Source: Alphaproteobacteria bacterium
Lineage (GTDB): Bacteria > Pseudomonadota > Alphaproteobacteria > ATCC43930 > CGMCC-115725
Length of the DNA: 33,696 bases
Direction of reading: 5' to 3'
Assembly: GCA_021324875.1 (NCBI GenBank)
Contig: JAJPIH010000092.1
Location: 1-33,696, forward strand
The notes under the pieces were generated by a model. That model saw only the letters and a program-made list of their open reading frames with translations. It did no database searches and was not told the DNA's origin. The position numbers and the translations under genes were made by a program. Of this stretch, positions 3,903 through 24,580 are shown one piece after another (the stretch's first letter is position 1; every line of letters begins with the position of its first letter).

Positions 3903-4802
3903 ATGCTGACGCCAGCCGATCTTGCCGCCTATCGACGCGACGGGTTCATGGTGCTGCCCGACATCCTCTCCGCGCGCGAGATCGAGGCTTTGCGGCGCGT
4001 GACTGACGATTTCGTCGCCGCGGCAAGCCGCATCACGGCCAATGACGACATCTATGATCTCGAAGATTCGCACGCGCCGGGGGAGCCGCGGGTGCGCCGC
4101 ATCAAGACGCCTCACCTGCATCACCCGGTCTATGCCGAGGCCGCCCGTCACCCGGCAATCGTCGCGGTGCTCAGGGATCTGTGGGGTTCGGTCCGGTTTG
4201 ACACCGGCAAGCTCAATATGAAATCGGCCGGCTATGGGGCGCCCGTCGAATGGCACCAGGACTGGGCCTTCTACCCGCACACCAACGACGATCTGGCCGC
4301 GGTCGGCATCATGCTCGACGGCTGCGACGCGGACAACGGACCGATGATGGTGCTTCCCGGCAGCCATTTGGGGCCGATCTACGACCATCACGGCCCGGAC
4401 GGACGCTTCTGCGGCGCGATCGACGTCGAAGCCAGCGGGCTTGACCTGTCGGCGGCGGTGCCTTGCCTCGGTCGGGCCGGGTCGATCACGGTGCACCATG
4501 TGCGCGCCGTGCACGGCTCGGCAACCAACTTTTCCGGCCGGCCGCGGCGCCTGCTGCTGTTCCAGTACCGCGCCGCCGATGCCTGGCCGCTGCTCGGCTT
4601 CAAGGACGGCATCGAGAAATTCGACGAATTGCTGCTCGCCGGCGAGCCGAGCTTGACACCGCGCCTGGCCGCGGTGCCGGTGCGCCTGCCATTGCCTCCC
4701 GCCGCGCATCAGGGGTCGATCTATGAAAACCAGCGCGCCACCGGCCGCCGGTTTTTTGCGACCGCGGCGGCGCCGGACCGGGTGGCGGTAGCCGCCGAAT
4801 AA
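3903..4802 (+). CDS. Phytanoyl-CoA dioxygenase (PhyH) family protein
   Basis: MLTPADLAAYRRDGFMVLPDILSAREIEAL; Fe ligands VEWHQDWAFYPH (HxD) and distal H in VRAVHGS; SD GGAGGGA before ATG 3903. Confidence 0.9.
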   Translation: MLTPADLAAYRRDGFMVLPDILSAREIEALRRVTDDFVAAASRITANDDIYDLEDSHAPGEPRVRRIKTPHLHHPVYAEAARHPAIVAVLRDLWGSVRFDTGKLNMKSAGYGAPVEWHQDWAFYPHTNDDLAAVGIMLDGCDADNGPMMVLPGSHLGPIYDHHGPDGRFCGAIDVEASGLDLSAAVPCLGRAGSITVHHVRAVHGSATNFSGRPRRLLLFQYRAADAWPLLGFKDGIEKFDELLLAGEPSLTPRLAAVPVRLPLPPAAHQGSIYENQRATGRRFFATAAAPDRVAVAAE

Positions 4803-4829
4803 CAGGGACGCGCAGCGGCTGGGGGCTGG

Positions 4830-5411
4830 TCAGAAGAGCGGCAATTGCTCGGCCGCCGCCGGGTAGAGGATGGTACCGTCGGGTTGCGGCGCCGCCCCCG
4901 GGGTCAGGCTCGCCGCCTCGATCTGTCCGCGGCCGAGGATGTGACGGACGGACAATCCGGACACAATCAGATAGTCGCTGACGATGCGGCGATGGCAGCG
5001 CCACCACACCGCCTCGGCGCACATGATCGCGCTGCGGCGGTCAGCGGCGAGGTCGATGAGCTCCCGCAGACCGGCGCGAAAATCGGTGCTTGAGGCGGCA
5101 TAATCGGCATAGTTGCGAAACGCCTCGCTGCGCCACAATAGGTTTGATGAGCGCACCCCCTTTTGGCGACCGCGCAGACCGCCGAGCGCCGGCAGATGTC
5201 GGTAGGCGATCCCGGCCGCAGCCAGCGCCGGAGGCAGCACCTCGCGGTTGAATTGCGGGTTGGTGCGCGAGCGCGGCACCGAGCGGATGTCAACCAGCAA
5301 CGTCACCTCCGCCTGCCGCAACAGTTCGACCAATTCCGCGACCGGGCGCGTCGAGTGTCCGATTGTCCAGATCGTCAGCGGCTCGTCACGCGGCAGGTCG
5401 TTCATCGCCAT
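4830..5411 (-). CDS. DUF488 domain-containing protein
   Basis: TIWTIGHSTRPVAELVELLRQAEVTLLVDIRSVPRSRTNPQFN...YRHLPALGGLRG is diagnostic of DUF488. Confidence 0.92.
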   Translation of the reverse strand: MAMNDLPRDEPLTIWTIGHSTRPVAELVELLRQAEVTLLVDIRSVPRSRTNPQFNREVLPPALAAAGIAYRHLPALGGLRGRQKGVRSSNLLWRSEAFRNYADYAASSTDFRAGLRELIDLAADRRSAIMCAEAVWWRCHRRIVSDYLIVSGLSVRHILGRGQIEAASLTPGAAPQPDGTILYPAAAEQLPLF

Positions 5412-5505
5412 TTACATCGCAACCGGTGCTTATATCAGCCATTTACCAAAATCGTTGCAATCCTGTCCGGTCTTCGTCTAGATGCCGCGCGAGGGAGGAT
5501 CGGTT

Positions 5506-5736
5506 ATGGACCAACGTTCGATTGAAAAACATCTGCGCCGTTGGCACCGTCGCGACAAAAGCGCTGGCGAGAATTTGTCGCGGGACGGTGCGGTGGAGGT
5601 GTCGTCGGGCGATCGCCGACATAGCGCCACCACCGGCAGCGGGCTTTCGGTCGAGGCCCAGATCCGAAAGGAATGGGATCCGATGCGCGGGGGCGGATTG
5701 CCGACGTTTCTGGCGATTATCGACGATGACGAATAG
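5506..5736 (+). CDS. Small hypothetical protein (76 aa)
   Basis: ORF preceded by GGGAGG SD; MDQRSIEKHLRRWHRRDKSAGENLSRDGAVEVSSGDRRHSATTGSGLSVEAQIRKEWDPMRGGGLPTFLAIIDDDE; no recognised family. Confidence 0.6.
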   Translation: MDQRSIEKHLRRWHRRDKSAGENLSRDGAVEVSSGDRRHSATTGSGLSVEAQIRKEWDPMRGGGLPTFLAIIDDDE

Positions 5737-5997
5737 TCGGTGACGCCATCCCCTTCGGAAGGCGCCGTCGCGGCAACGCCCGCGCCTGGCGAAGGGCCGC
5801 AACCACGGCGATTTGACGGGGTGACGTTGACGACCGAAAAACCGCCGCAATAATTTCGGTTAGGGGGACAGAGTGGAACTCCCGCGCTTCGGCATGGGCT
5901 TGCCAGAGAATTGCCTTGGCGCCGCCGCGCAGAGAGACCCGGTTGCCGTTTTTGACAACCGGCGATCGTCGCCGAGATCGCTGCCGCGGACGCCGCA

Positions 5998-6990
5998 GTG
6001 AAAGCGATCCTGCTGCGGCAGCCCGGGGCTCCGACCGCGCTCGAATATGTCGAGGTGCCGACCCCGGTTCCTGGGGAAGGTCAGATCCTGGTCAAGGCCG
6101 ACACGATCGGGGTCAGCATGCCCGAGGTGTTGGTGCGTCGCGGCACCTATAATTGGATGCCGCCGCTGCCCGCCATTCCCGGGATCGAGATGAGCGGCAT
6201 CGTCGTTGCCCACGGCCCCAATGTCACGAGCCCGGCCGTCGGCCAAGGGGTATTTGTCAGCGCCCGCGAATTGCCGGTGCGGGCGGGCTGTTACGCCGAA
6301 TATATCGCAGTACCCGCGCGCGCTGCCTATCCCCTGCCCGCGGGGGTCTCGCTCGAAGCCGCGGCATGCCTTTCGAATTATCAGGTCGCCTATCACCTCT
6401 TGCATAGCGCGGCACGCGGGATCAACGCCGGGAGTGTGCTGGTCTACGCCGCCGCCGGCGGCGTCGGCAGCGCGGCGGTGCAGCTCGCCCTGCTGTCGGG
6501 CAAGAGCGTGATCGCCGTGGTCGGCTCGGACGCGAAGGCCCGGGCGGTCCTCGAACTCGGCGCCGGCCAAGCGATCAACTATCGTTCCGAGGACGTGGTC
6601 GGGCGGGTCATGCACTGCACCGGCGGGCGCGGTGTCGACCTGATCCTCGACCCGATCGGCGGCAAGGGATTTGGTCGCAATTTCACGATGCTGGCGCCAT
6701 TCGGCATGGTGATTTCATATGGTCGTCTCGACGGTCCCCCGGAACCCGACCTGGTTGCGGCGATGCGGGCCAATTCGACCGCCAGCCCGGCGCTGCGCTT
6801 TTTCACGATCCACAGTTTTGACGACCGTCCCGACATCCGCAGCGCGGTGACGAAAAAGCTGCTGACGCATTTGATGGCCGGCGAAATCCGGCCGTTGGTT
6901 CATGCCCGTTTGCCGCTGGCCAAGGCCGCGCAGGCCCATGAAATGCTGGAAAGCGGCGCGGTAACCGGTAAGCTTTTGTTGAAGCCATAG
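5998..6990 (+). CDS. Zinc-type alcohol dehydrogenase-like / NADPH:quinone oxidoreductase (MDR superfamily), GTG start
   Basis: MKAILLRQPGAPTALEYVEVPTPVPGEGQILVKADTIGV...VYAAAGGVGSAAVQLALLSGKSVIAVVGSDAKARAVLELGAGQAINY; Rossmann motif AAGGVGSAAVQLA. Confidence 0.92.
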   Translation: MKAILLRQPGAPTALEYVEVPTPVPGEGQILVKADTIGVSMPEVLVRRGTYNWMPPLPAIPGIEMSGIVVAHGPNVTSPAVGQGVFVSARELPVRAGCYAEYIAVPARAAYPLPAGVSLEAAACLSNYQVAYHLLHSAARGINAGSVLVYAAAGGVGSAAVQLALLSGKSVIAVVGSDAKARAVLELGAGQAINYRSEDVVGRVMHCTGGRGVDLILDPIGGKGFGRNFTMLAPFGMVISYGRLDGPPEPDLVAAMRANSTASPALRFFTIHSFDDRPDIRSAVTKKLLTHLMAGEIRPLVHARLPLAKAAQAHEMLESGAVTGKLLLKP

Positions 6991-7146
6991 CGCCTTCGCG
7001 GTCGTGGCCCGTCCTGCGGTTGCGGCGGTGCGCCTTTGGGCTCGCTGAATGAACTACCTTCACCCGATTCCCGGTGTATTTTATCGTCGCGCCGATAGCG
7101 GCGGATGCGCCGCTTTGGCAATCGCAAGGAACGGGGGGAAGCAAAC

Positions 7147-7542
7147 ATGAGACTACTCTATACGGGTCTCGATGCCGCCAGACCGTACGTCCTCAGCATT
7201 GTTCGTATCATCACGGCGCTGTTGTTTCTCGAACACGGGCTGCAGAAATACTTTCATTTTCCATCGGCGGGTCCGGCGATGCGCCCCCTGCTTTATGTTC
7301 AAGGGCTGATCGAGATCATCGGCGGCGTGCTGTTGTGTCTGGGCATCTATACCCGCATCGTGGCATTCTTCCTTGCCGGCGATATGGCGGTGGCCTACTT
7401 TATCGCGCATGCGCCGCGTTCGTTTTATCCGGCCGTGAATGGCGGCGACGCGGCCGTGCTCTATTGCTTTATCTTTTTCTACTTCGTCTTTGCCGGCGGC
7501 GGACCTTTGAGCCTCGACCGCGTTCTGGTCAAGCGGGGATAG
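7147..7542 (+). CDS. DoxX family membrane protein
   Basis: VRIITALLFLEHGLQKYFHFPS...LYVQGLIEIIGGVLLCLGIYTRIVAFFLAGDMAVAYFIAHAPRSFYPAVNGGDAAVLYCFIFFYFVFAGGGPLSLDR; typical DoxX. Confidence 0.92.
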   Translation: MRLLYTGLDAARPYVLSIVRIITALLFLEHGLQKYFHFPSAGPAMRPLLYVQGLIEIIGGVLLCLGIYTRIVAFFLAGDMAVAYFIAHAPRSFYPAVNGGDAAVLYCFIFFYFVFAGGGPLSLDRVLVKRG

Positions 7543-7713
7543 ATCGGACCGGCGCGCAACCGGGAGAACCGCGTCGGCGCCGCCGCGCCCGTTCGGTTCG
7601 GCCATGTCACCGGTGAACCGCCGTCTTGGGAGTTACCGCATTCCGGCCCGTTTGTTCTCTAATGTCGTCAGACAGGATCCCGTCGGCGCCCTCTTCCCCG
7701 ACGATCGATTGAA

Positions 7714-8661
7714 ATGGAGAAGCTCTTGCCTCGCCGCCTGCATGCCGCTGTCGCCCAACTTGGCCCCATTCATCGCAGCGACGAGCGCGCCGCGGTTGTG
7801 CGACGGCTCATGGCCTTGCTGCGCGAAGCCCACACCCGCGGCGCTCGCTTTGTGGTGTTCCCGGAATTGGCGTTGACGACCTTCTTTCCGCGCTGGTGGA
7901 TTACCGACCAGGCCGAGATTGACCGCTTCTTCGAGCGCGAAATGCCGAATGCCGCAACCCGGCCGCTATTCGACCTGGCCGCGGAGCTCGGGGTCGGATT
8001 CTACCTCGGTTATGCCGAGTTGGCCGCGGAGCGCGGCGCAGTCACGCGCTACAACACCGCCATCCTGGTGGATGGCAACGGACGGATCATCGGGCGCTAT
8101 CGCAAGATCCATCTGCCGGGCCATTCCGACCATCTGCCCGAGGCTCCGTTTCAGCATCTCGAAAAGCGCTATTTCGACGTCGGCAATGACGGCTTCCGGG
8201 TCTGGCGGTTTTGTGACGCGATCGTCGGCATGTGCATTTGCAACGATCGCCGCTGGCCCGAGACCTGGCGCGTTCTCGGCTTGCAGGGCGCTGAAATCGT
8301 CGCGCTCGGCTACAACACCCCGCTCGAAAACATCCATCACCGCGAGCCCGAACATTTGCGGATGTTTCACCATCTGCTGTCGCTGCAGGCCGGCGCCTAT
8401 CAGAATGCGACCTGGGTATTGGCGGCGGCCAAATGCGGCAGCGAGGACGGGTTTGCGATGATCGGCGGGTCGGCGATCGTGGCCCCGACCGGCGAAATCG
8501 CGGCCCGAACATTGAGCGAGGATGACGAGGTCATCACCGTCGAGCTCGACCTCGAGCTCGGCGCCTATCTACGCCGAACCGTCTTCGATTTTGCCCGGCA
8601 CCGCCGCATCGAGCATTATCGTCTGATCACCGAGCGCACCGGCGCCAAGGCCGAAGTCTAG
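7714..8661 (+). CDS. Nitrilase-superfamily amidohydrolase, N-carbamoyl-D-amino acid hydrolase-like
   Basis: Catalytic triad context: FPELALTTFFPRWW (E), RKIHLPGH (K), VGMCICNDRRWPE (C); the CNDRRWPE motif is typical of D-carbamoylases. Confidence 0.88.
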   Translation: MEKLLPRRLHAAVAQLGPIHRSDERAAVVRRLMALLREAHTRGARFVVFPELALTTFFPRWWITDQAEIDRFFEREMPNAATRPLFDLAAELGVGFYLGYAELAAERGAVTRYNTAILVDGNGRIIGRYRKIHLPGHSDHLPEAPFQHLEKRYFDVGNDGFRVWRFCDAIVGMCICNDRRWPETWRVLGLQGAEIVALGYNTPLENIHHREPEHLRMFHHLLSLQAGAYQNATWVLAAAKCGSEDGFAMIGGSAIVAPTGEIAARTLSEDDEVITVELDLELGAYLRRTVFDFARHRRIEHYRLITERTGAKAEV

Positions 8662-8823
8662 TCGCGACCCGCGCCGAACTCTGGCCGCGCCGGGCACAGG
8701 CGGCGTTGATCGGGGGCCGAGCGCGGTATCATCGGCCGCACCTCTCCGAGCGTTCACGATGGCCGGCATTGACCGCCGCGAGATCCGATGCGGCAATCGC
8801 GCACGCTCGATCGCGGGCCGCTC

Positions 8824-9858
8824 TCAGATCGCCAGCGGCTCGGCGCGGGCCGCTTGCGCGACTGCGGCAAGCGCCTCGCGGCACAGGGTTTCAGCAGGAA
8901 AACCGGTGGTTTTGATCAGGATCTCGGCCTCGGCGAGGCGCTCGAGCGCGGCCCGCAACGCCGGCTCCCGCCATTGCTCGAGCTGTCGCCGGATCGGCTC
9001 CCGGTGTTTGAAAAAGATCGGCGGGCGGGCGGCGGCCATCACCGCGTCGAGCGAATTGCCGGCGGTCAGGCTCGCGGCCAGGCCGTGCAGGCGCTGCAGG
9101 TGCCGCAGCAGCGCGCGCAGCACCGTGACCGGGGATTCGCCGCCCTGGAAGACGCGATCGAGCACCCGCTCGAGCCGCGCCGGATCGCCTTCGGCGGCGG
9201 CCATGATCGCGTCGTCGAGTTCGAGCGCGGCGCTGTCGCCAACCAGCCGGACCGCATCGTCGAACTGCACTTGGCCGCCCTCGCCGACATACAAAGCCAA
9301 TTTGTCGAGTTCGGCGCGGGTGGCAAGGCGGTCCTCGCCAAGATGGTCGACCAGGTAGCGCATCGCATCCGCGCTTGCGCGCACGCGGCGGGCGGCGAGG
9401 CTCTCGCGGATCACCGCAACCCGGTCGCGCGCCGTGTCCGGATAGCAGCCAATTGCCGTGGCTTGGGGCGCGGCCTCAAACGCGCGCCGCAGCGTCGAGG
9501 CGGTCGACGGCTCGCCCGCCTCGATCACGATCAGCGCATCACCCGGCAGTTGCGCAAGAAAGGCGGTGAAGATGCGGGCCAGGCTGTCGTTGGCCCCGCG
9601 CACCCTGACCACCCGCCGCCCGCCGATCAGGCTCAACTGTGCGGCCTCGTCGGCCAGACGCGCGGGATCGGCGGCGAGCGTCGCCCCGTCAAGTTCGGTG
9701 ACGCGAAACGGGTCGCCCAGATCGGCGCAGACGCTGCGGGCGAGCGTGTCGGCGCGCTCGCGCACCAGACCGGCATCCGGCCCGTACAGCAGCACGGCGC
9801 GGATCGCCGCATCGGGACGCTGCAAAAATCCGGCGACCCGGGCCGGCGCCAGCCTCAC
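8824..9858 (-). CDS. holA: DNA polymerase III subunit delta (GTG start)
   Basis: RAVLLYGPDAGLVRERADTLARS...FRVTELDGATLAADPARLADEAAQLSLIGGRRVVRVRGAND; GTG at 9858 overlaps the lptE TGA (GTGA). Confidence 0.92.
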   Translation of the reverse strand: MRLAPARVAGFLQRPDAAIRAVLLYGPDAGLVRERADTLARSVCADLGDPFRVTELDGATLAADPARLADEAAQLSLIGGRRVVRVRGANDSLARIFTAFLAQLPGDALIVIEAGEPSTASTLRRAFEAAPQATAIGCYPDTARDRVAVIRESLAARRVRASADAMRYLVDHLGEDRLATRAELDKLALYVGEGGQVQFDDAVRLVGDSAALELDDAIMAAAEGDPARLERVLDRVFQGGESPVTVLRALLRHLQRLHGLAASLTAGNSLDAVMAAARPPIFFKHREPIRRQLEQWREPALRAALERLAEAEILIKTTGFPAETLCREALAAVAQAARAEPLAI

Positions 9859-16688: not shown

Positions 16689-18029
16689 ATGACCAGCGCA
16701 CCGCGCGGGGCGGAGATGATCGACGACAGCGCGCCAACAGCCATCGAGCCGGCCGGCGACGATCCGGCCGCCGACGATCCGACCGGCGACGACCCGGCCG
16801 CCGACGACCCGGCAGGCGACGACCCGGTCGGCGACGACCCGGCCAATCGACCGGTCGTCACACTGCTGCCGGCGGCGCACCGGCGCGCCGAGAGCGGCCA
16901 TCCGTGGATCTATTCGAACGAGGTCAAAATGGATGCCGCGACCCGCGCGCTTCCCGCCGGGACGCTGGTCACCTTGCAGCGCGGCGACGGGCCGCCTTTC
17001 GCGGTCGCGATGTTCAACCCGCACACCTTGCTCGCGGCCCGGATCCTCGACCGCGATGCCAGCCGGGTCATCGGCGCCCGTTTTTTCCGGCGCCGGGTCG
17101 AGCGCGCGCTGCGGCTGCGTGAACAAATCTTAGACGAGCCCTATTACCGGCTGGTTCATGCCGAGGCCGATGGCCTGCCCGGTCTGGTCATCGACCGCTT
17201 TGACGATGTTCTTGTCGTGCAGCAGAACGCCGCCGGCATGGTCCGGCTCGCAAAGCCCCTTCTGACCGCCCTTGCGGAGCTCTTGAAACCGCGCGCGATC
17301 GTGCTGCGCAACGACAGCTCCGCCCGCCTGCAGGAGGGTCTGAGCCCCGAGGTCCGGATTGTCGCCGGCTCGCTCGACGCTGCCGCGATGGTCCGCGAAC
17401 ACGGCGCGCGGTTCCGGTTCGACCCGCTCGCCGGCCAGAAAACCGGTTGGTATTTCGATCAGCGCGAGAACCGCCGGTTTATCGCCCGACTGGCCCGGTC
17501 CGGGGCCCGCATTCTCGACCTTTATTGCTACACCGGTGCGTTTGCGGTGCAGACGGCCCGCGCCGGCGCCACCGCGGTGGTCGCGATCGATCGTTCTGAG
17601 GCGGCCTTGGCGCTGGCCAGGGAAGCGGCGGCGCTCAACGGCGTCGAGACCCTGTGCACATTCCGCCGCGGCGACGCCTTCGGCGAGGCCGAGCGGCTGG
17701 CGGCGCAAAGCGAACGGTTCGACATCGTCATTGCCGACCCGCCGGCCTTTGCCAAATCGCGCAAGGAAGTGCCGGCAGCGTTGCGCGGCTACCGCAAGCT
17801 TGTGCGGTTGGCGACGGCGGTGACCGCGCGCGGCGGCTTTTTGTTTGTCGCCTCCTGTTCATTCCATGTCGGCGAGGCGGAATTCTTTGACATGGTTCGG
17901 CGCGGGCTTGCCGATGCCGGCCGCAGCGGCCGCATCATCCGCCGCGCCGGGGCGGCTCCCGACCATCCGGTGCATCCCGCCTTGCCCGAGAGCGCCTATT
18001 TGAAGTCGGCAACCGTCGCGGTCGATTGA
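16689..18029 (+). CDS. rlmI: Class I SAM-dependent rRNA methyltransferase (RlmI/RlmK-like, PUA domain) with N-terminal acidic repeat
   Basis: RRAESGHPWIYSNEV (PUA start), FRFDPLAGQKTGWYFDQRENRRFIARLA, ILDLYCYTGAFAVQTARAGATAVVAIDRSEAAL, FDIVIADPPAFAKSRKEVPAALRGYRKL. Confidence 0.92.
   Translation: MTSAPRGAEMIDDSAPTAIEPAGDDPAADDPTGDDPAADDPAGDDPVGDDPANRPVVTLLPAAHRRAESGHPWIYSNEVKMDAATRALPAGTLVTLQRGDGPPFAVAMFNPHTLLAARILDRDASRVIGARFFRRRVERALRLREQILDEPYYRLVHAEADGLPGLVIDRFDDVLVVQQNAAGMVRLAKPLLTALAELLKPRAIVLRNDSSARLQEGLSPEVRIVAGSLDAAAMVREHGARFRFDPLAGQKTGWYFDQRENRRFIARLARSGARILDLYCYTGAFAVQTARAGATAVVAIDRSEAALALAREAAALNGVETLCTFRRGDAFGEAERLAAQSERFDIVIADPPAFAKSRKEVPAALRGYRKLVRLATAVTARGGFLFVASCSFHVGEAEFFDMVRRGLADAGRSGRIIRRAGAAPDHPVHPALPESAYLKSATVAVD
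16755..16844 (+). repeat. Six tandem 15-bp units (~GGCGACGACCCGGCC) encoding [G/A]DDP[A/T/V] repeats
   Basis: Units at 16755, 16770, 16785, 16800, 16815 and 16830 differ by only a few substitutions each. Confidence 0.95.
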
Positions 18030-19438
18030 CCCGACATGCGCTGGCGCCAAACCGCGCGCTCGGACGGCGCCGGCAGGATAAGGCGGAACACGGTTCCCGA
18101 GCCGGTGCTGGCGACCAGCGCCAGATCGCCGCCATGGGCGCGCGCCAATTCGCGGGCGATCGCCAGCCCGAGCCCGGTGCCGCCGGGCCGCGCCGAGCCG
18201 AAAAACGGGCGGAACAAATTCTCCCGCGCCTTGGGCGGCAGGCCGGGGCCGTCATCGCTGACTGTGATCACCACCGTCTCGGCCGCCGGCGCCGCCGTGA
18301 CCTGCACCCGTCGGGCGCCGGCCTCGAGCGCGTTGCGGATCAGGTTGGACAGCAGCCGATAGAGCTGATCACGATCGGCTTCGAGCTCTAGATCATCGGG
18401 GATGATCGCCTCGACCGCCCTGTTCTCGGCGCCCGCGAGCCCGGCGGCGATCTCTTCGACGAGCGGCCCCAGCGCAATCCGCGACCGCGTCAGCGGGGCG
18501 GCATCCTCGCGCGAGAAGTCGAGCGTGCGTGTGCACAGGGCCACCGCCCGGTCGATCGCATCGACCAGCCGGGGCAGCAACCGGCGCACTTCGGGCGCAG
18601 CACTGGCGCTGAGCCCGTCGGCGACCAGCCGTGCGGTCGCCAGGATGTTGCGCAAATCGTGATTGATTTTGGTCACCGCCGTGCCGAGCGCGGCAAGCCG
18701 GCGGCGCTGCGCCAGGGCGCCGCGCACGGTCTGCTGCATGATCGCCAATTCGCGCTCGGCCATGCCGATTTCGTCACGGCGCCGCCCCGCCGCGATCATT
18801 CGCGCGCCATCTTCCGGATCCTCGCGAAACGCCATCATGCTGGCGGTGAGCCGCCGCATCGGCCGCACCAGCAGCCATTGCAGGCTCAGATAGAGGAGGG
18901 CGGCGGTGATCAGCGACAGAACAATCGACAGTTCCAGAATACGCGCCCCGAAATTCCACATCTCCCGCCGCAGCGGCGCCTCGTCGAGCAGGATTTCGAC
19001 GGTCTCGACGCCATGCCCGGCCGCCGCCGGCCCGATCACCCGCAACACCCGGTTGCCGGAGCGCAGCAGGGCCATCAGCGAGCCCCGGATCGCCCCCGGA
19101 ATGCTCGGATGGGTAAGGTCGATTGTGGTGTCCGCGCGCGGCAAAACCGGCGCATCCAGCATCAGCACGGCGCCGTTGGCGCGATGCACAATGACGCTAT
19201 GGGCGCCGACCCCGGCCAGCAATTTGTCGACCAAAGCGCGATCGAGCCGCCCGGTCGGGCTCGCCTCCAACGCCAGCGCGGCCAATTCGCCGGCGGCGAG
19301 GTGGTTGTCGAAATAGGTCATGCGAAAACGCGCCACCGAGAGCACAAAGATCAGCACCTCGCCCAGCATCACGAACAGAATGGTCAGTACCAGCAGCCGG
19401 GCCGACAGGCTCTTCAACAGCACGGCAAGCATCCACAT
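17996..19438 (-). CDS. Membrane-bound sensor histidine kinase
   Basis: N-terminal TM segment, periplasmic region, second TM; LVRPMRRLTASMMAFREDPED (HAMP-like), KINHDLRNILATARLVADGL (H-box), NLIRNALEAGA (N-box), DDGPGLPP and GGTGLGLAIARELARAHGG (G-boxes). ATG at 19438 overlaps upstream TGA. Confidence 0.93.
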   Translation of the reverse strand: MWMLAVLLKSLSARLLVLTILFVMLGEVLIFVLSVARFRMTYFDNHLAAGELAALALEASPTGRLDRALVDKLLAGVGAHSVIVHRANGAVLMLDAPVLPRADTTIDLTHPSIPGAIRGSLMALLRSGNRVLRVIGPAAAGHGVETVEILLDEAPLRREMWNFGARILELSIVLSLITAALLYLSLQWLLVRPMRRLTASMMAFREDPEDGARMIAAGRRRDEIGMAERELAIMQQTVRGALAQRRRLAALGTAVTKINHDLRNILATARLVADGLSASAAPEVRRLLPRLVDAIDRAVALCTRTLDFSREDAAPLTRSRIALGPLVEEIAAGLAGAENRAVEAIIPDDLELEADRDQLYRLLSNLIRNALEAGARRVQVTAAPAAETVVITVSDDGPGLPPKARENLFRPFFGSARPGGTGLGLAIARELARAHGGDLALVASTGSGTVFRLILPAPSERAVWRQRMSGQSTATVADFK

Positions 19439-20856
19439 CAGCCGAGGTGCCTCAGCAAGCGTACCATCCAACGGGTACGCGGCGAGAACAAGAGCGGCGT
19501 GAAAAAGCTGCCGGCGGCCCGCTTGCCCGCCTCGCTCCGCGTCGGATAGGGCATGACCAGATTGGCCAAGGCGCCGATTTTGAGCCGCTGGGCGATCGCC
19601 AGCGCCCAGGGAAGAATGAGCTCGCCGGCGCCCGGCGCCAGCACCGTCGCGCCGAGGATGCGACCGCTTTTCAGCGCCACGATCTTGACGAGCCCGATCG
19701 TGTCGCGCTCGGTATGGGCGCGATCGTTCTCGGCAAAGGGCCAACGCAGCACCCGCACCGAGCCGCCAAACCGCGCCCGCGCTGCGGCCTCGCCAAGCCC
19801 CACCTGGGCCAGCTCGGGATCGGTATAGGTGACCCACGGAAAGGCGCGATAATCGGCCTTCGCCGGCAGCCGGAACAGCGCGTTCCGGATCACAATGCCG
19901 GCATGGTAGAGGGCGGCGTGGGTGAATTGCGGCCCGTTTGCGACGTCGCCCACGGCGTAAATCCGGCGGTTGGAGGTGCGCAGACGGGTATCGACAAAGA
20001 TCCCGCGATGATCGGCCGCGACCCCGGCGGCGCCGAGGCCGAGCTCGTCGAGGTTCGGGCGGCGCCCGGCCGCGACCAGCAAATGCGACCCGGCAATCCG
20101 CTCGCCATCGACCAGCCGCACCGCCAGCCGATCCTTTTCCTGGCTGACCGCGGCGATGGCGATCCGGGGGCGCAGCGCAATCCCCTCCGCGGCAAGCCGC
20201 TCGGCCAACAGCGCCACCATTTCCGGATCGTCGCGCGGCAGTATCGGGCCTTGGTCGAAGACCGTCACCCGGGCGCCGAGCCGGCGATGTGCCTGGGCCA
20301 ATTCGATACCGACCGGCCCGCCGCCGATCACCAGCAAATGATCGACCGGCGTCCGGTTGGCAAAGATTGTCTCGTTGGTCAGATACGGAACCTGCGCCAG
20401 CCCGGCGATCGGCGGGATCGCCGGTTGCGAGCCGCTGGCGATCACAAAGCGCCGCGGCCGGATTTCGGCGTCGCCGGCGCGCAGCGTTTGCGGGCCGACA
20501 AAGCGCCCGGTGGCGGCGACCACCGTGGCGCCAAGCGCGCGAAACCGCGCCGCCGAATCATTGGGGGCCAGCGCGCCGACGACGCGTTCGACACTGTCGG
20601 CGACAGCGTTCCAATCCACGCGCGGTTGCGGATAGTCGAGGCCAAAGGCGGGCGCCTTTCGCCACAGATCGGCCATGCGCGCCGCGGCGAGCAGCGATTT
20701 GGACGGCACGCAGCCGGTGTTGAGACACTCGCCGCCCATGGCCCCCCGCTCAACCAGCACCACGCTGGCGCCGAGCTGCACCGCCCCGGCCGCCACCGCC
20801 AAGCCCCCCGCGCCGCCGCCGACCACGCAGAGATCGGGGGTCAGCGTTGATCTCAT
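19438..20856 (-). CDS. FAD-dependent pyridine nucleotide-disulfide oxidoreductase (mercuric reductase-like)
   Basis: VVGGGAGGLAVAAGAVQLGASVVLVERGAMGGECLNTGCVPSKSLL (FAD site and CxxxxC), LLVIGGGPVGIELAQAHRRLGARVTVFD (NAD(P) site), RIYAVGDVANGPQFTHAALYHAGIVIRN. Confidence 0.95.
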   Translation of the reverse strand: MRSTLTPDLCVVGGGAGGLAVAAGAVQLGASVVLVERGAMGGECLNTGCVPSKSLLAAARMADLWRKAPAFGLDYPQPRVDWNAVADSVERVVGALAPNDSAARFRALGATVVAATGRFVGPQTLRAGDAEIRPRRFVIASGSQPAIPPIAGLAQVPYLTNETIFANRTPVDHLLVIGGGPVGIELAQAHRRLGARVTVFDQGPILPRDDPEMVALLAERLAAEGIALRPRIAIAAVSQEKDRLAVRLVDGERIAGSHLLVAAGRRPNLDELGLGAAGVAADHRGIFVDTRLRTSNRRIYAVGDVANGPQFTHAALYHAGIVIRNALFRLPAKADYRAFPWVTYTDPELAQVGLGEAAARARFGGSVRVLRWPFAENDRAHTERDTIGLVKIVALKSGRILGATVLAPGAGELILPWALAIAQRLKIGALANLVMPYPTRSEAGKRAAGSFFTPLLFSPRTRWMVRLLRHLG

Positions 20857-21566
20857 CGCCCGCCCCGGCGGCGGCGCCGGCAGCAGACCGGGACAAGCGC
20901 CAACCCCGCCAAGCCCAGCATCGGACCGAACACGCCCGGGCGCAGCAGGATGCCCAGATCGGGCTCCTCGACGGCAGTACGAAGACCGTTGCCGAGGCTC
21001 GCATAGACAAAGGTGCCGGGGATGATCCCCAGAAATGTCGCGAGCATGAACGTCCGCGTTCCGACGCCGGCCAATGCCGGCGCGAGATTGACAAGCCAGA
21101 ACGGGAACAGCGGCACCAGACGCAACGCCAGCAGATAATTGAATGCATGAGCCGCAAACCCGGCCTCGAGCTTGCCGAGCCGCGGTCCGGCGCTCCGCGC
21201 CAGGCCGCTGAACCCGGCGCGCGCGGCGAGAAAGACCGCGGTGGCGCCGAGTGTCGCGCCGATCACCGCGCAACCGCCGCCGAGCCAGGTCCCGAACAGG
21301 AACCCGCCGGCAATGGTCAGGGCCGCGGCGCCAGGGAGCGACATCGCAACCGCCGCGGCATAGACCGCGACATAGCCGATCACGGCTGCGACGCCGAGCC
21401 GGGCGGCCAGATTGCACAACCAGACGCGGTTGTCGGCGATGGCGGAGAAGCTTACGTAGCGGTGCCAGCCGGCGGCAATAAAACCGATGCCCGCCACGGC
21501 AAGGATCGCCAGCGGCGCGTAGCGGCGCAGCGCAACGGGCGCGCAAGGAAAGGTGCGACGTGACAT
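20853..21566 (-). CDS. TVP38/TMEM64 family (VTT domain) membrane protein
   Basis: AVAMSLPGAAALTIAGGFLFGTWLGGGCAVIGATLGATAVFLAAR...LALRLVPLFPFWLVNLAPALAGVGTRTFMLATFLGIIPGTFVYASLGNGL. Confidence 0.92.
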   Translation of the reverse strand: MSRRTFPCAPVALRRYAPLAILAVAGIGFIAAGWHRYVSFSAIADNRVWLCNLAARLGVAAVIGYVAVYAAAVAMSLPGAAALTIAGGFLFGTWLGGGCAVIGATLGATAVFLAARAGFSGLARSAGPRLGKLEAGFAAHAFNYLLALRLVPLFPFWLVNLAPALAGVGTRTFMLATFLGIIPGTFVYASLGNGLRTAVEEPDLGILLRPGVFGPMLGLAGLALVPVCCRRRRRGGR

Positions 21567-21790: not shown

Positions 21791-22801
21791 TCAAAACCCC
21801 GGCCGCATCGGCCGGGGTTTTTGCGCCGCACCCGCGGACTCCGGCAGCTCTCCGGCAACCCGCCACAGCCGGCCGGTTTCGACCAGGTGATAAGCGCCCA
21901 AGACCGGCAGGCCGATCGCGAAATCCCGCGCCCGTTTGAGCAATGACAACGCAAGGGTGGTCTCGGCGCCCAGGCCGAAGCTCATGCCGAGCACGACATA
22001 AGCCCCTTCCTGCACGCCGAGCGCGTTCGGCGCCATGAACGCCAGCGAACGGATCGCATAAAGCAAGCTCTCGATCGCCACGACCACCCCAAAGCTGCGT
22101 CCCGCCCCCATCAGCTTCAGCGCGAGCCAGATTTCGCCGGCACTGGCGATCCAGGCGATCAGGTGTAACCCGAAACTCGCCGCGACCCGCCGCCGGCGGG
22201 CATAGGTCGCGGCGATCGCGGCATGCACGCTCGCCGCCGCCGCCGCCGTCTTCGCGGTCCAACCGCGACCGAGCGCCCGCTCCAACAGGCCAAACCCACG
22301 GCGTTGGGCCACGACAAAGGCCAGCGCCCCCGCGACCGCCAGTCCGGTGCCGATGGCGCCGGGTAGCGCCAGCGAGGAGCGCGGGTTGCGCGCCACAAGC
22401 CACGACAGCGCGATCGCGACATAGGCGATCTGGGCCAGAAATTCCTGGGTGACATCGACAATCGTCGTCGCCACCGCCGCGCCGCCGGGAACGCCGGCGA
22501 CCGCAAGCGCCCGGGCGCCGAAAACGTAACCGCCGAGTTGCGAGAACGGCAGCACCTCGGCGACCGAGTCGCGCACCAAGCGCGCCCATATCACCGGCCA
22601 TGGGCCGCTCCCGGGCAGAAGCACCCACCAGGCCAGCCCCATCATGGCCATCAGCAGCAAATGGATGGCGCAAATCAGGACGACGCCGGAGATGCCGACC
22701 GCGGCCAGCGAGCGGGCCACCGCGCCCGCCCCGAAATGGACGACGAGCACGGCGATGACCGCCGAACCGGCGGCCGCCAGCAGGACCGTAACCCAGCGCA
22801 T
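21791..22801 (-). CDS. HpnL-like / lysylphosphatidylglycerol synthase TM-region (flippase-like) membrane protein
   Basis: Multi-pass hydrophobic protein: MRWVTVLLAAAGSAVIAVLVVHFGAGAVARSLAAVGISGV...LLPFSQLGG-type EVLPFSQLGGYVFGARAL...FMAPNALGVQEGAYVVLGMSFGLGAETTLALSLLKRARDFAIGLPVL. Confidence 0.85.
   Translation of the reverse strand: MRWVTVLLAAAGSAVIAVLVVHFGAGAVARSLAAVGISGVVLICAIHLLLMAMMGLAWWVLLPGSGPWPVIWARLVRDSVAEVLPFSQLGGYVFGARALAVAGVPGGAAVATTIVDVTQEFLAQIAYVAIALSWLVARNPRSSLALPGAIGTGLAVAGALAFVVAQRRGFGLLERALGRGWTAKTAAAAASVHAAIAATYARRRRVAASFGLHLIAWIASAGEIWLALKLMGAGRSFGVVVAIESLLYAIRSLAFMAPNALGVQEGAYVVLGMSFGLGAETTLALSLLKRARDFAIGLPVLGAYHLVETGRLWRVAGELPESAGAAQKPRPMRPGF
21793..21822. terminator. 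Strong GC-rich inverted repeat with flanking A/T tracts (intrinsic terminator candidate)
   Basis: AAAACCCCGGCCG-CAT-CGGCCGGGGTTTTT: perfect 13-bp stem, 3-nt loop, T tract on the plus strand and TTTT on the minus strand. Confidence 0.75.
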
Positions 22802-22808
22802 TCACCCG

Positions 22809-23651
22809 TTATCGACGACCGCGGCCGACCCTGCCCAAGCGCAGACCGGCAAGGACAAACCCGGCGAGCCGCGGCAAAAAAACCGGTTTCAGCAATTGCG
22901 CGTCAAAGGCATGCATGCGGCGGTCATATTCGGCGCAGCACTCTTCAAGAAGCATGCGCAGCGAAAAGCCGTCGAGAAAGATCGCGGCCTGCGTCGGCGA
23001 AAAATCGCGGCCGTCCGCGGCGTGCCGCCCGCGACGCACGGTCCCGAGAAGCCGGCCGATCGCCCCGGCGTAATAGCGCAGCGCGATGATCGCGCGCAGC
23101 CAGGCGAGACCGCGGCCGCGGCGCGCCTGCTCCCACGCCATCCAATTGATGAAAAAGACGATATGCCGGTTTTCCTCGTGCAGCAGGAGCTCGAAAATCG
23201 CGAATAACGGCTCCGGCAGGTAAGCCGCGCGTCGCGCGATGTTGAACACGCCAAAGCCGAGAAAGGCATCGAGGCATTCGCCATAGCCGAAATCGGCAAA
23301 GGCGCGGTAGAGATCGGCCGGCGGCGGTTCGGCCCGGACGTCGCCAACGGCAACGCCGTAGCGGCGCGCCATCAGCCACAGCAGACGGGCATGGCGAGCC
23401 TCTTCGTAGGCTTGCAGGGCCACCGCCTGGCGCACCAGCGGGTCGTCGATGCGCGCCGCATACGCATTCACGATGGCCCCGGCGCGCCGCTCGGTGGTCA
23501 GCACCTCGCCCCAGAACGGGATGGCCCGCAGCCTCGCCAGGGCCTCGGCGTCGAGCGCCGGCCAGGGCAGCGCCTCGGGTTGATAAGGATTGTGGGTGGC
23601 GATGAAATCCTCGCAAAACCGCCGCTTGTGCTCGTCGGTTCCGGCCTTCAT
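22809..23651 (-). CDS. Diiron ferritin-like domain protein, paralogue B (start 23651; upstream ATG 23678 also possible)
   Basis: QAYEEARHARLLWLMARRYG and FELLLHEENRHIVFFINWMAWE give two ExxH motifs plus intervening GECLDAFL; ATG 23651 overlaps upstream stop (ATGA). Confidence 0.75.
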   Translation of the reverse strand: MKAGTDEHKRRFCEDFIATHNPYQPEALPWPALDAEALARLRAIPFWGEVLTTERRAGAIVNAYAARIDDPLVRQAVALQAYEEARHARLLWLMARRYGVAVGDVRAEPPPADLYRAFADFGYGECLDAFLGFGVFNIARRAAYLPEPLFAIFELLLHEENRHIVFFINWMAWEQARRGRGLAWLRAIIALRYYAGAIGRLLGTVRRGRHAADGRDFSPTQAAIFLDGFSLRMLLEECCAEYDRRMHAFDAQLLKPVFLPRLAGFVLAGLRLGRVGRGRR

Positions 23652-24580
23652 GCGGGCGCCATGATCGTCCTTCGCCACCGCAGGAGGCGGTGGACAAAGC
23701 GCATCACGCCGGGGACGAGCCGCGGCCGCAACAGTCGCGGATCATAGCCTTCGAGGCGGCGCTCGTTCTCGCCGAGGCAGATCTCAAGCAATTCGGTAAT
23801 CGAAACTTTGGCATTACCGATCGCTTTGCTGCCATTCATGGTAAAGTTGTTGTCTTGTCCCTTTGCCGCCTCGTCGCCGCCAATCCCGCGCGCGATGCCC
23901 AGCCGCTCCCAGACCAGAAACGCCCATACCGCCGCCACCCGGAGCGCGAACCACGGCCGCCTCCAAACCGGCAACCGCCGGCGATGCCAGGCCGCCCAGT
24001 TGACAAAAAACAGGATGTGGCGACCCTCTTCCTGCATGACCGGTTCGAAGGTGTCGACCAGCGCGGTCGGGAAAAATCCCGAGCGCTTGGCCAGCGCAAA
24101 CAGGCCGAAAGCAAAAAAGCTGTCGATGCACTCGCTAAAGCCGGTGACCATGAACGCCCATTCGCGGTCGCGAGGCCGACGATATTCGGGTTCCGGCGCC
24201 AGGCGAATGCCATAAGCGGCGACGAGATTGGAGAGCACCTCCTTGTGGCGGCCCTCCTCGAACCCGTCGAGTTCGATCGCTTGCCGCAACAGCGGATCGG
24301 TCACGGTTTCGGCATAGCCGAGCACGCGCTCTCGGGCCTTGCCCTCGGTCTGAACGGCGATATCCCAGATCGGCAGCGTGACGAGCCGATCGCGCGCTTC
24401 GGGATCGAGCGCCGGCCAATCGATGACCGCGGGTTTGTAGCGGTTGTGGGTTTCCAGCAGCATTCGGCAGAATGCGACCTTGTGCCCATCGCTGCCGAGC
24501 GGGATCGGGTCATCGCCCGACGCCGTCCATTCGCGAGCGGCCCGGTCGGCCGCCTCGATCGCCGTGTCATCCGCCCGCAT
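23648..24580 (-). CDS. Diiron ferritin-like domain protein, paralogue A
   Basis: ELDGFEEGRHKEVLSNLVAAYG and FEPVMQEEGRHILFFVNWAAWH give two ExxH motifs plus SECIDSFF; collinear with paralogue B over most of its length. Confidence 0.75.
   Translation of the reverse strand: MRADDTAIEAADRAAREWTASGDDPIPLGSDGHKVAFCRMLLETHNRYKPAVIDWPALDPEARDRLVTLPIWDIAVQTEGKARERVLGYAETVTDPLLRQAIELDGFEEGRHKEVLSNLVAAYGIRLAPEPEYRRPRDREWAFMVTGFSECIDSFFAFGLFALAKRSGFFPTALVDTFEPVMQEEGRHILFFVNWAAWHRRRLPVWRRPWFALRVAAVWAFLVWERLGIARGIGGDEAAKGQDNNFTMNGSKAIGNAKVSITELLEICLGENERRLEGYDPRLLRPRLVPGVMRFVHRLLRWRRTIMAPA

Follow-up and report, generated by a model that had tools for sequence, protein, structure and literature searches.

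The D1-D2-hpnL operon

At positions 21791-24580 on the minus strand, the window (the whole stretch of DNA analysed, 33,696 nucleotides long) carries a three-gene operon in the order D1, D2, hpnL. Its features are as follows.

23648-24580, minus strand: D1 (P0001), ferritin-like diiron protein of 310 aa, with ligands E79, E109/H112, E150 and E185/H188
22809-23651, minus strand: D2, paralogue of D1, 280 aa, with ligands E54, E84/H87, E125 and E160/H163
21791-22801, minus strand: hpnL (P0003), hopanoid-associated LPG_synthase_TM/flippase-like membrane protein of 336 aa (TIGR03476)
21793-21821, minus strand: terminator-like hairpin with a T-tail, which overlaps the hpnL stop and closes the operon (direct folding)

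The first-pass annotation, made from the letters of the sequence, had described this operon correctly: all three open reading frames lie where it placed them, and the ATGA overlap at the D1/D2 junction and the quoted motifs are present. The hpnL start follows 7 bp past the D2 stop. Its assignment of the third gene as HpnL-like is likewise borne out, since the protein scores 262.2 bits against TIGR03476, over the curated cut-off of 195.65 bits; it is the only HpnL of the window's genome. Direct folding of the operon end gives a 13-bp hairpin of -28.5 kcal/mol (z -3.7), which a simple terminator scan requiring five T in the tail did not list. Upstream, the rnpA-yidC-engB side (named from sequence and synteny) runs divergently from the operon. 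Downstream, at 17996-21566 on the minus strand, lie genes for a VTT-domain membrane protein, a pyridine-nucleotide/flavin disulphide oxidoreductase and a histidine kinase, the synteny of which is kept within the genus.

D1 and D2 as ferritin-like diiron proteins

D1 and D2 are diverged paralogues, as proposed at the outset, sharing 39% identity over 271 aa (E 7e-58). Searches of Pfam and NCBIfam assign no family to D1 and none of significance to D2, and the curated acyl-ACP desaturase profile in these collections gives the same result, with no match by D1 and no significant match by D2. Against Rubrerythrin (PF02915), D2 reaches 12.1 bits, below the Pfam gathering score of 22.8, and D1 does not match this profile. 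A sequence search of the PDB finds no relative of known structure for D1.

Conservation of the metal site is much more informative. Among 130 relatives (105 D1 and 25 D2 sequences), 129 keep the six canonical diiron ligands, the sole exception being H112Q at locus L083, and E108, R111, C151, E184, R187, N194, E271 and R275 are also invariant in this set. Ligand columns this close to invariant mean that the motifs first noticed in the sequence are no chance pattern, and both D1 and D2 have complete metal sites by sequence.

Structural modelling agrees with this assignment. The AlphaFold model of D1, based on 62 D1 homologues (pLDDT 88, pTM 0.87), is a four-helix ferritin-like bundle with the ligands in place on consecutive helices in the order E, ExxH, E, ExxH: E79 in helix 72-90, E109/H112 in helix 96-123, E150 in helix 139-167, and E185/H188 in helix 179-202. 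This predicted ligand set is the canonical diiron arrangement, and the ferritin-like diiron fold that had been read from the motifs is supported both by the model and by its similarity to diiron oxidases in Foldseek. Against the PDB, the best Foldseek matches of D1 are the R2-like ligand-binding oxidase (R2lox), RNR R2, aldehyde deformylating oxygenase (ADO) and the arylamine oxygenase CmlI (probability 0.97-1.0), with E-values of about 0.01-0.1, identity of only 10-16% and TM scores up to 0.61 (ADO), but none of them is matched at the sequence level. D1 and D2 thus form a branch of their own among the ferritin-like diiron oxidases, one that has no name and whose members are oxidase-sized rather than storage-ferritin-sized.

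Size and architecture also bear on another reading, in which D1 and D2 are iron-storage, peroxide-scavenging or oxygen-sensing proteins merely located in hopanoid loci. The ferritin-like fold would allow this, as would the weak Rubrerythrin match of D2, but the nearest folds are oxidases (R2, ADO and CmlI) with 220-330 residues, alignments to ferritins cover no more than about half of the D1 chain, and D1 carries conserved additional C-terminal helices and a loop.

One segment of D1 (residues 233-256, window about 23813-23884) is disordered or of low confidence in the model, yet strongly conserved. It retains D243, N245, F246 and G250 (QDNNFT..G) and differs in D2 (NDGKDF); it may serve as a substrate or partner lid.

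Linkage to hopanoid biosynthesis genes

Hopanoids are the bacterial counterpart of cholesterol. The D1/D2 family belongs to the hopanoid pathway, being linked to hpn genes and depending almost strictly on hpnH. Gene neighbourhoods were compared at 80 named loci, with flanks of at most 10 kb and often shorter, by sorting the genes through all-against-all comparison and annotating the resulting clusters. At one locus (L117), the gene order is hpnI-hpnJ-hpnK-D1-D2-hpnL-hpnA-hpnB-hpnC-hpnD-shc-hpnG-hpnH, and at three others (L118, L149 and L073) D1 without D2 follows hpnK within hpn clusters. The genes flanking D1 in these clusters score over the curated NCBIfam cut-offs. Within the reach of 10 kb, 37 of the 80 loci contain an hpn gene and 23 contain one besides hpnL; in Acetobacteraceae and Burkholderia, D1 of this set usually does not stand beside other hpn genes.

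Co-occurrence across genomes extends the link beyond immediate neighbourhood. Among 337 alphaproteobacterial genomes, HpnH scores over its cut-off in all 22 D1 carriers versus 70 of 315 non-carriers (Fisher p = 5e-14, for genomes that are not independent), and the association is seen in each of the 13 families that the carriers span. Acetobacteraceae show the same pattern: 73 of 140 genomes carry D1, with HpnH over the cut-off in 71 of them, a fragment in one and none in one. A third family has D1 in two of 121 genomes, directly after hpnK, and both are among its 12 HpnH-positive members. On plasmids, HpnH lies on the same replicon in 11 of the 13 D1 records of the collection.

The window's own genome carries hpnK-hpnJ-hpnI, hpnH, hpnG and shc on another contig (C416, locus L151), whereas elsewhere D1 and D2 occur inside hpn clusters. 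With the rest of the hpn set on that contig and the genome's only hpnL in the operon, the operon is a segment of the hopanoid pathway that has been displaced.

Taken with the fold, this placement makes it very probable that D1 and D2 are a diiron enzyme for hopanoid tailoring. The tie between D1 and hpnH also weighs against storage, scavenging or sensing proteins that happen to sit in these loci, a reading that becomes highly improbable. The first-pass annotation had suggested a lipid-modification system; its membrane-lipid role stands and can now be specified as hopanoids. A 2025 survey (PMC12583986) names hpnA-hpnR and hpnX in its text, with neither D1 nor D2 among them, and no paper in the literature searched links ferritin-like diiron proteins to hopanoids. 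Fold and pathway are already known; the D1/D2 family has no name.

Distribution and evolution of D1, D2 and hpnL

Phylogenetic analysis separates D1 and D2 into two clades split by one branch with an SH-aLRT support of 100, which points to an old duplication rather than a local one. D1 is an accessory hopanoid-pathway gene, and D2 is its ancient paralogue. D1 alone is commoner than the pair, D2 being missing from 61 of the 80 D1 loci (some of which are incomplete); examples include Cupriavidus and Burkholderia, whose loci are without D2. All five named Gluconacetobacter loci carry both genes, and no D2 was seen without D1 in the genomes examined, including the 337 alphaproteobacterial and 140 Acetobacteraceae genomes. 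In several genomes of the family, D1 and D2 form one in-frame open reading frame of about 585 aa, which suggests joint action of the two proteins in genomes that have both.

The duplication had initially been taken to indicate a heteromeric enzyme. In its strict form, D1 and D2 would be an obligate heterodimer catalysing one reaction, and D1-only genomes would hold a different, homodimeric variant. The ATGA coupling, the in-frame fusions and the lack of any D2 without D1 favour such an arrangement, but so many loci without D2 do not, metal sites are complete in both proteins, and the model of the fused protein, with two bundles and a pTM of 0.54, fixes no domain arrangement. An obligate heterodimer is possible though doubtful: joint work is suggested by the fusions, but the heteromer is not obligatory, as D1 often occurs without D2. 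This question concerns subunit make-up and is compatible with desaturation or hydroxylation as the reaction.

The module varies between genomes of the window's genus at a single syntenic site beside rnpA-yidC, where four genomes show the following arrangements.

G007, syntenic site: D1-D2-hpnL
G005 (L155, C410:12000-24000), 4464-8911: an additional D1 between yidC and rnpA, plus D1-D2-hpnL, giving three diiron genes
G006 (L153, C265), 5336-7712: hpnL at the syntenic site, with no D1/D2 in front
G004 (L154, C412), 1600-2681: short D1 remnant only, beside hpnL

Congeners that keep hpnL without intact D1/D2 indicate that hpnL is independent of them and that D1/D2 are the accessory genes. Obligate coupling of D1/D2 to HpnL was rejected on the congener with hpnL at the same site and no D1/D2. 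The tight coupling to the flippase that the first-pass annotation had envisaged, and had offered for checking by neighbourhood comparison, is accordingly not supported: 28 of the 80 loci have hpnL no more than 1.3 kb from D1, and many genomes, among them one of the same genus, have hpnL without D1/D2.

Proposed role in hopanoid ring desaturation

Knowledge of unsaturated hopanoids goes back to the 1980s, and soluble acyl-ACP desaturases are ferritin-like diiron proteins that perform desaturation. According to the 2025 survey, two oxidative steps in hopanoid biosynthesis are without genes, namely delta-6/delta-11 ring desaturation and the hydroxylation of the side chain that yields pentols and hexols; it states that the desaturase genes are unknown, and likewise those for pentol and hexol formation (PMC12583986). 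We infer the first of these steps as the specific reaction of D1/D2, giving a role as hopanoid ring desaturase about an even chance.

Mechanistically, D1 and D2 would use O2 at a diiron centre to tailor hopanoids (bacteriohopanepolyols). Binding of O2 to reduced D1 would form a diiron oxidant, which would remove hydrogens from an unactivated CH2-CH2 unit in ring B and so generate a delta-6 double bond, a chemistry modelled on the soluble ferritin-like acyl-ACP desaturases. D2, found only beside D1, would either act at a second position (delta-11) or pair with D1 as a subunit. HpnL would deal with this lipid too, and D1/D2 would not need it. Acyl-ACP desaturases have the same kind of ligands as D1 (E, ExxH, E, ExxH), and their desaturation chemistry is a plausible one for D1, but they are absent among the top 50 fold matches listed for D1, and they use acyl-ACP, whereas the presumed substrate of D1/D2 is a polycyclic triterpenoid.

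Three reasons favour ring desaturation: this precedent in acyl-ACP desaturase chemistry, the unsaturated hopanoids of those carriers whose chemistry is known, and the distribution of pentol producers (below). In the survey, 49-82% of the BHPDs of acetic acid bacteria are unsaturated (PMC12583986), and a delta-6 BHT cyclitol ether is reported for B. cepacia and putatively for B. cenocepacia (PMC8560942; PMC5516240). The match is at the genus level, with Gluconacetobacter (D1+D2) and Burkholderia (D1) both making unsaturated hopanoids, and the pentol phenotype overlaps with it. Since the same bacteria also make BH-pentol derivatives, these phenotypes fit side-chain hydroxylation as well as desaturation.

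Hydroxylation is the main rival. D1/D2 would then modify the hopanoid side chain at C-31 (and C-30), converting BH-tetrol to BH-pentol and BH-hexol through the same class of enzyme chemistry. This reading would fill the second gap named by the survey, and it suits both the pentol cyclitol ethers made by Burkholderia and acetic acid bacteria (PMC8560942, PMC12583986) and the position of D1 next to the side-chain genes hpnIJK. The distribution of pentols argues otherwise. They are common in Sphingomonadales and Nitrospirillum, where there is little or no unsaturation (PMC12583986), and D1 is present in only 2 of 12 HpnH-positive genomes of a family that may be Sphingomonadaceae, a weak identification based on 112 bases of 16S at 96%; with that weakness, most carriers do not seem to be pentol producers that lack unsaturation. 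Moreover, the BHPDs of Gluconacetobacter diazotrophicus are 49% unsaturated and only 6% pentol plus hexol (PMC12583986). On this evidence, side-chain hydroxylation is unlikely to be the reaction of D1/D2.

If ring desaturation is the reaction, D1 could be the delta-6 and D2 the delta-11 desaturase, with D1 alone yielding delta-6 and D1+D2 yielding delta-6,11 hopanoids. This division of labour is tentative, with less than an even chance of being right, and the delta-11 activity of D2 is speculation. Komagataeibacter, kin to the D1+D2 carrier Gluconacetobacter, makes diunsaturated hopanoid products, which fits this speculative role. For the delta-11 hopanoids of methanotrophs, a membrane sterol-desaturase-like protein has been proposed (PMC6460317), and these organisms may use another enzyme. 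Sterol-desaturase-family candidates (hpnX, POZ53527 and WP_003625306) have been proposed for the same reaction as D1/D2 (PMC12583986, PMC6460317) but belong to a different superfamily: POZ53527 is integral to the membrane and carries His motifs (PMC6460317). The candidate desaturase of the survey is stated there not to match unsaturation 1:1 (PMC12583986).

If the assignment is right, D1 and D2 would be the first soluble ferritin-like diiron desaturases with a polycyclic triterpenoid as substrate, and would differ from every membrane-bound sterol desaturase. The family is a good candidate for the long-missing hopanoid ring desaturase, already placed in its pathway and testable in culturable bacteria, and it extends the diiron oxidases by a branch tied to hopanoids. 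Unsaturated hopanoids serve as biomarkers, of nitrogen fixation among other things (PMC5516240), and D1/D2 could serve as a marker in genome surveys that predict producers of these lipids.

Neighbouring genes in other carriers

Other genes accompany D1 in particular lineages. In Burkholderia and Paraburkholderia loci (L072, L076, L099 and others), an FMN reductase gene (PF03358) lies directly upstream of D1 on the same strand, and a gene for a conserved 98-aa protein of unassigned family also precedes D1 on that strand. Together, these two genes are possibly an electron source or supply operon for D1. In Acidiphilium and relatives (L045, L046, L064 and L081), a SAM methyltransferase gene comes directly after D1; it could provide a further tailoring step or be there by chance.
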